Source: Chthonomonas sp.
GTDB taxonomy: Bacteria; Armatimonadota; Fimbriimonadia; Fimbriimonadales; Fimbriimonadaceae
Reading direction: 5' to 3'
NCBI GenBank assembly: GCA_016788425.1
Contig: JAEURQ010000002.1
Location: forward strand, 496,001-560,000
Length of the DNA stretch: 64,000 bases
Of this stretch, positions 41,656 through 42,150 are shown piece by piece. The translations under genes and the position numbers were made by a program. The notes beneath the pieces are model-generated. The model did no database searches, was not told where the DNA came from, and worked only from the letters and a program-made list of their open reading frames with translations. Every line of letters begins with the position of its first letter. Position 1 is the stretch's first letter.

Positions 41656-42030
41656 ATGAGTACGCGAATCCTCACGACTGTGGCCGCTGTGGCCGTTCTT
41701 GTGGCCGCCTTGCCGCTGGCCACCGCCCAACAAAAGAAGAAGCCCGTGGCCGCCAAGATGTCCGCCGCCAAATCGACGTTCCAAAAGGACGTTGTTGACT
41801 TCACCACTAAGTTCTGCGTGAGTTGCCATACCGGCAAGAACGCCGCCGATGGCGTGGACATCCCCAAGAACGTCAAGGAAGCCGACGTCAAGGTGAAGTA
41901 CGCCAAGCTCTACCGCAAGCTAGCGCGGTACGCGGGTAGCAAGCAAATGCCGCCGCGCGATGCCAAGCCGCAACCCAAGGATGCCGAGCGAACTGCCTTT
42001 ACAAAGTGGATCAGCACGAACATTAAATAG
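41656..42030 (+). CDS. Secreted small c-type cytochrome-like protein
   Basis: The 124-residue product has a signal peptide (RILTTVAAVAVLVAALPLATAQ) and one heme motif CVSCHTGK (about residue 55), with MPPRD later supplying the likely axial Met region as in 'planctomycete-type' cytochromes. ATGs stand at 41653 and 41656; TAAGAT ends 8 nt before the second, which I prefer. It could serve the sugar dehydrogenase at 16912 or respiration. Confidence 0.8.
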   Translation: MSTRILTTVAAVAVLVAALPLATAQQKKKPVAAKMSAAKSTFQKDVVDFTTKFCVSCHTGKNAADGVDIPKNVKEADVKVKYAKLYRKLARYAGSKQMPPRDAKPQPKDAERTAFTKWISTNIK

Positions 42031-42071: not shown

Positions 42072-42098
42072 TTAGCAGTCGCAAGGGTATACTGCTAA
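42072..42098. promoter_or_regulatory. CIRCE-like HrcA operator of groESL
   Basis: TTAGCAGTC, nine spacer bases, then TACTGCTAA: the geometry (9-N9-9) is exactly that of CIRCE (TTAGCACTC-N9-GAGTGCTAA), with 8-bp perfect arms and compensating changes. It covers the -10 box TATACT (42088-42093), so HrcA binding would block transcription. No hrcA gene is in the window. Confidence 0.8.
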
Positions 42099-42150
42099 AA
42101 CTTGGTTGCCGCGGCGAGCCCGCGACAACCATCTTCACAGAGGAACAACG

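Follow-up and report, generated by a model that had tools for sequence, protein, structure and literature searches.

The groESL operon in the window, the whole stretch of 64,000 nucleotides of Chthonomonas sp. DNA analysed here, is preceded by an inverted repeat that resembles CIRCE, the operator of HrcA, with altered bases in both arms. It raises the question of which protein recognizes such a site: an ordinary HrcA, an HrcA whose recognition has changed, or some other repressor that shares the geometry, the last two having been proposed in a preliminary description of this DNA. The comparisons below suggest that the site is very probably a CIRCE operator that is bound by the HrcA of this genome, is fused with the groESL promoter and tolerates C or G at base 7. 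Conservation, position and paralogous sites all lend good support to a CIRCE-type operator over the predicted groESL -10 box.

The probable operator and the predicted promoter of groESL

The inverted repeat is real: positions 42072-42098 carry TTAGCAGTC-GCAAGGGTA-TACTGCTAA, with the core TTAGCAGT-N11-ACTGCTAA (Table 1). Compared with the CIRCE consensus TTAGCACTC-N9-GAGTGCTAA, as given in the portions covered of two reports (PMC545781, PMC7464140), the site showed three mismatches. It was the sole match with at most three mismatches to this consensus within the 64-kb window, and none of 100 dinucleotide shuffles of the window gave any such match. The CIRCE spacing and the TTAGCA/TGCTAA bases were retained, and the differences lay at 3 of the 18 arm positions: the two base-7 positions and the one that opens the right arm. 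The base-7 pair was swapped symmetrically (C to G on the left, G to C on the right), whereas the ninth pair was broken, with C at 42080 opposite T at 42090 (consensus G), so that one of the three changes is uncompensated. The preliminary description had stated that both arms differ from canonical CIRCE, which these mismatches bear out, and that a 9-N9-9 palindrome is kept; this holds for the symmetric base-7 pair, but the palindrome is actually 8-N11-8.

That description had also placed the site over the groESL -10 box, and the -10-like TATACT indeed overlaps the right arm. Together with the weak -35-like ATGAAA it scored 9 of 12 against the promoter consensus. A 301-base stretch contained two promoter-like matches, compared with a shuffle mean of 0.2, and the second of them lay inside groES. 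Further 5' of groES, the window encodes a small protein (41656-42030) with a weak Cytochrome_CBB3 match below the Pfam cut-off and a CVSCH haem-binding-like motif.

Table 1. Operator, predicted promoter elements and genes of the groESL locus (window coordinates)
Feature	Position	Strand	Remark
Weak -35-like ATGAAA	42066..42071	+	16-nt spacer to TATACT; -35 not conserved in the family
Left CIRCE arm TTAGCAGTC	42072..42080	+	Base 7 is G (canonical C)
9-nt spacer GCAAGGGTA	42081..42089	+	Last four bases, GGTA, conserved at groES1 in the family
Predicted -10 hexamer TATACT	42088..42093	+	Spans spacer end and right arm; consensus match
Right CIRCE arm TACTGCTAA	42090..42098	+	GAGTGCTAA in canonical CIRCE; C21 is the partner of the left-arm G
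groES (Cpn10), 103 aa	42151..42462	+	Start 52 nt past the operator
groEL (Cpn60), 532 aa	42462..44060	+	groESL operon

Related sites in the genome

The 2.67-Mb genome contained a single HrcA match, with a PF01628 C-terminal domain of 118.5 bits (cut-off 22.2) and sequence similarity to the solved HrcA structure 1stz (E 4e-23). Two other groE genes were also preceded by the variant core: a site with one mismatch to TTAGCAGT-N11-ACTGCTAA was located 26 nt 5' of the second groEL (groEL2), and a site with two mismatches was located directly 5' of the second groES (groES2), on the other strand. In the whole genome, two sites with at most one mismatch were found (the window site and groEL2) where a uniform model predicts 0.03, and four with at most two mismatches where it predicts 0.7. 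Three of these four lie directly 5' of groESL1, groEL2 and groES2, which argues against chance. With up to three mismatches the core was hardly enriched (nine places, compared with six for a reversed control).

The preliminary description had advised a search for the same variant near dnaK and hrcA. No site with up to four substitutions occurred in the 3.6 kb searched around hrcA, and no CIRCE was seen in about 280 nt upstream of dnaK; the companion sites are those of groEL2 and groES2. A genome-wide exact search for canonical CIRCE was likewise negative.

Some additional sequences were observed. A site with two mismatches, TTGGCACTC-N9-GACTGCTAA (L005:1501-1527), directly follows a TAGAAT box, some 270 nt upstream of a DUF2130 gene; it may be an extra HrcA target or a chance match, 0.7 being expected at this threshold. 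The dnaK gene (L124) is preceded by a HAIR-like sequence, CGTGAGT-CTACAAG-ACTCAAG (G000:C4:486292-486312, L342), ending 27 nt before the dnaK match. The HAIR pattern showed no genome-wide enrichment (59 places at up to three mismatches, compared with 163 in the reversed control), so this assignment is based on position. It would place dnaK under an HspR-type repressor, with the groE genes carrying CIRCE. A second HAIR-like site, with one mismatch, was set aside as it lay inside a long open reading frame.

Distribution of the base-7 forms in the phylum

We compared 291 genomes of the phylum, 85 from the family of the window (f1) and 206 from outside it, and named the sites by base 7 of the left and right arms. 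Exact G/G cores were found in 15 genomes, all of them in f1 (15/85 versus 0/206). Exact C/C sites were present in 111 genomes, 4 of the 85 in f1 and 107 of the 206 outside, and exact C/G sites in 54, of which 30 were in f1 (30/85 versus 24/206). An HrcA match was found in 82 of the 85 f1 genomes. In the whole sample, any of the three exact forms occurred in 150 of 254 genomes with an HrcA match and in 9 of 37 without one (p 8e-5, hand tally); the nine assemblies that hold an exact site nonetheless count against the HrcA reading. None of the three forms was found in the 19 genomes of six families classed as lacking HrcA (f22, f23, f25, f29, f30 and f39), a class that for some of these families is inferred from absence among the matches listed.

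Probable fusion of the operator with the groESL1 promoter in the family

The f1 upstream regions comprised 71 that best matched groES1 and 39 that best matched groES2, representing, among the matches listed, about 69 genomes for groES1 and about 39 for groES2 out of the 85. Two regions were left out of the groES1 logo and tests (L222, with five mismatches, and L301, the C/C site at a second groES of G157), and one was left out of the groES2 tests (L340, with six mismatches). Outside base 7, at most two mismatches at the 14 core bases were found in 68/71 groES1 and 33/39 groES2 regions. The base-7 pair of these 68 groES1 sites was mostly C/G (52), followed by G/G (11), C/C (2) and others (3), and the G/G sites belonged to the genera g1 (that of the window), g19, g20 and g32. 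The 33 groES2 sites were more varied, with G/G in nine, A/C and G/C in six each, G/A and C/G in four each, C/A in three and A/G in one.

In the logo of 69 groES1 sites, not only the arms but also the end of the spacer was conserved, with G15 in 66 sites, G16 in 65 and T17 and A18 in all 69. A variable position 19 followed, and then A20 (69), C21 (65) and T22 (69). The conserved stretch GGTANACT is likely a -10 box inside the operator. TANACT was present in the right arm of 65/69 groES1 sites, as opposed to 0/38 groES2 sites (p 8e-25), and C at position 21 in 65/69 and 18/38, respectively (p 6e-8). G19 was kept in 4 of the 69 groES1 sites versus 29 of the 38 groES2 sites. The loss of G19 and the C at position 21 fit a -10 box, which probably explains the change in the right arm. 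The left arm carried C in 56/69 groES1 but only 12/38 groES2 sites, indicating that base 7 is not wholly free; in the window and a few relatives the left arm has G too, and symmetry is restored.

No -35 box was conserved in the family, as none of the 40 upstream logo columns of the 69 groES1 sites exceeded 0.23 bits. With a strict rule (a -35/-10 pair scoring at least 9/12), the -10 of the best promoter fell at positions 17-22 in 14 of the 69 groES1 sites and elsewhere in 5, and 50 sites had no such pair, so that it is the conserved -10 by itself that argues for a merged promoter. The same rule placed the promoter upstream of the site in 16 of the 38 groES2 regions and elsewhere in 4 (missing in 18). 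Of 29 canonical sites from other families, 24 had it upstream, 3 had it downstream (L144-L146), 1 had it at position 25 and 1 lacked it. G15 of the groES1 sites might serve as the G in an extended -10 element, which is no proof. Judging from these alignments, the groESL1 promoter of f1 has apparently shifted into the operator. G arms also have causes other than promoter overlap, since among the exact C/G sites listed outside f1 none had TA at positions 17-18 (read by eye with the C arm first, whatever the gene direction).

Other arrangements were also seen. In three genomes of family f11 (L144-L146; G020, G021 and G023), the spacer of a canonical CIRCE holds TTGACA, and a -10-like hexamer follows 17-18 nt later, outside the site; on account of this TTGACA, f11 seems to have merged the groESL -35 box with the operator. 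The groES1 upstream region of G131 (L222) seemingly has one extra spacer base (TTAGCAGTC ... AAACTGCCAA) and so departs from the otherwise constant 27 bp.

The G form in other bacteria

The exact variant core was scanned in about 85,000 species genomes and gave at least 118 matches, where about 60 chance matches would be expected in the whole collection; the counts that follow are among the 118 matches listed. A heat-shock-type gene or hrcA started within 600 nt downstream in 103 of them: groES in 45, hrcA in 18, rpoH in 17, clpB and htpG in 6 each, lon in 4, groEL in 3, hsp20 in 2, and dnaK and an ftsH-like gene in 1 each. The 600-nt limit was our own rule, ten representative loci were checked against Pfam, and the queries for rpoH, htpG, clpB, hsp20, lon, ftsH and a second hrcA were drawn from the same 118 loci and thus match themselves. 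The remaining 15 loci had no gene assignment, in some cases since the locus ends near the site. Furthermore, the inner pair C9/G19 was as in CIRCE in 89/118 loci, though it had been left open in the query. The gene context and this inner pair point to the G form as a recurrent form of CIRCE. The genome of the window does not stand alone in having G at base 7, which recurs at the heat-shock genes of many other bacteria; the 80 titles listed included Clostridia, Chloroflexi, Patescibacteria groups, Lysobacterales, Cloacimonadota, Acidobacteria and Armatimonadetes.

Of 50 genomes with the G form, at least 20 also held a C/C (6) or C/G (14) site, so the same HrcA probably meets both letters. Base 7 therefore looks exchangeable as far as the sequences tell. 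The 17 listed loci with the G form before an rpoH-like sigma factor gene included several of Lysobacterales (L028, L016, L022, L050 and L056), and a locus of Competibacteraceae (L044) had the same arrangement.

The HrcA recognition helix and alternative explanations

The N-terminal winged helix of HrcA carries the motif A-T-x-R. We aligned HrcA sequences translated from the open frames around tblastn hits in three sets, family, other-phylum and foreign, the last being the HrcAs next to G-form sites; the helix was recovered in 31/31, 29/30 and 18/18, respectively, one other-phylum HrcA having no residue aligned there. A42 and R45 were invariant in all 78 (31/31, 29/29 and 18/18), and T43 was retained in 76 of the 78. 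Residue 41 was S in 27, A in 2, G in 1 and P in 1 of the family HrcAs (n=31), S in 21, P in 7 and Q in 1 of the other-phylum ones (n=29), and P in 8, S in 8, A in 1 and L in 1 of the foreign ones (n=18). P41 was also present in genomes with C/C sites (L171, L173 and L174, from G224, G223 and G221). Residue 41 thus varies in both kinds of lineage and does not separate the users of C from those of G. The helix of the single HrcA in the window's genome, checked as the preliminary description had advised, is ordinary (SSATVRN at residues 40-46). In the wing, residue 66, which is R in the remaining aligned HrcAs, was C or S in 5/18 foreign HrcAs (L013, L034, L060, L077 and L092), the four of these with listed titles being of Chloroflexi/Dehalococcoidia type. 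The residue differences appear to be differences between lineages, and none told C users and G users apart among the HrcAs sampled.

These data bear on the proposal that the recognition surface of HrcA has changed in this lineage so as to prefer G at base 7, with operator and repressor co-evolving. The restriction of exact G/G sites to f1 within the phylum, the rarity of exact C/C sites there, and the higher share of residues other than S at position 41 in the foreign HrcAs (10/18 versus 8/29 in the other-phylum set) are in its favor. However, S41 is kept in most HrcAs of the family itself, most of its groES1 sites have C in the left arm, and many G-form genomes mix both letters. With A42 and R45 unchanged and residue 41 uninformative, an HrcA of altered specificity is not needed, and we regard it as improbable. 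The other proposal of the preliminary description, that another repressor recognizing half-sites of this geometry occupies the window site, fares worse and is very improbable, given the one HrcA match with its ordinary helix. Three genomes of the family lack an HrcA match, and one of these (G099) has a C/G site, but the three assemblies are just 68-77% complete, and HrcA was found in every one of the 70 family assemblies with a completeness of 90% or more and a contamination of 5% or less. The variant, moreover, precedes hrcA itself in 18 of the 118 listed loci.

An inverted repeat 5' of groES could also fold in RNA and act as a hairpin in the groESL leader instead of a DNA operator. Use of the predicted -10 would put the transcription start near 42100, past the repeat, which would then not be transcribed, and both the conservation of GGTA and the asymmetry of the C/G arms in most relatives fit DNA recognition better than a stem; a leader hairpin is accordingly hardly credible.

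Proposed mechanism and significance

The preferred reading remains a CIRCE operator fused with the groESL promoter and bound by the genome's own HrcA. The sequence and position of the site, its conservation, the paralogous sites, the presence of HrcA and the recurrence in other phyla are observations; we infer that HrcA binds the site, that the -10 is used, that repression works by exclusion, that heat induces the operon and that the promoter caused the change in the right arm. As the operator and the promoter are fused, HrcA and RNA polymerase would compete for the same 27 bp. HrcA is inactivated by heat or by scarce GroE in other bacteria, and on its inactivation the groESL operon would fire. 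The right arm would read ACTGC, not AGTGC, because its first bases double as the end of the -10 box (TANACT). If either C or G at base 7 suits HrcA, the left arm would be free to keep C, as in most sampled relatives, or to change to G, as in the window, restoring symmetry.

A broader proposal, to which we give somewhat better than even credence, is that the G form is a second natural form of CIRCE that works with ordinary HrcAs in many phyla, and that f1 has a 27-bp merged operator-promoter in which the -10 dictates one arm, with an occasional matching change in the other half-site. Should base 7 be exchangeable, HrcA sites can escape searches with the TTAGCACTC form, possibly including those at rpoH of Lysobacterales, htpG of Clostridia and lon of Patescibacteria. 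The merged promoter-operator of the family would offer a natural series (C/C, C/G and G/G) of repressor tolerance to a promoter-imposed change, and, if the reading is true, an operator half-site evolves here under the constraint of RNA polymerase.

Comparison with known systems

In the literature searched, most subscription papers lying outside its scope, we found no description of a G-form CIRCE or of the merged promoter, and a literal search for TTAGCAGTC/GACTGCTAA returned no HrcA title among the matches listed. In the portion covered of one report, the CIRCE signal is called highly conserved, and genomes were searched with the TTAGCACTC form (PMC545781). The window site has three changes, whereas working CIRCEs of Mycoplasma gallisepticum were inferred to have at most two mutations, according to the part covered of that study (PMC5138195).

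A precedent for an open base 7 comes from Waddlia chondrophila, of a different phylum. Its HrcA ChIP motif, TAGCA-N15-TGCTAA, specifies neither base 7 nor the inner bases; HrcA shifts a synthetic fragment of the motif, and the sites are active in an Escherichia coli reporter, while the G/G form is not described in the part of the report covered (PMC4989314). In Campylobacter jejuni, the region protected by HrcA at Pgro and Phrc overlaps the core promoter and the start site, similar to the arrangement proposed for the window; the part of that paper covered describes no conserved merging of a -10 box and the right arm, and also gives the HspR operator HAIR as CTTGAGT-N7-ACTCAAG (PMC7464140). HspR/HAIR likewise serves chaperone genes and has a HAIR-like counterpart before dnaK in the genome of the window, but its sequence is unrelated to the window site and it is absent from groESL.

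The closest relative is CIRCE/HrcA itself. The window site shares with it the TTAGCA outer arms, the spacing, the position before groES, the presence of HrcA and the recurrence at groE genes, and differs from it in the G at base 7 of both arms, the broken ninth pair and the likely -10 box in the right arm. On this comparison, the site is most likely a natural variation of the textbook operator rather than a new system.
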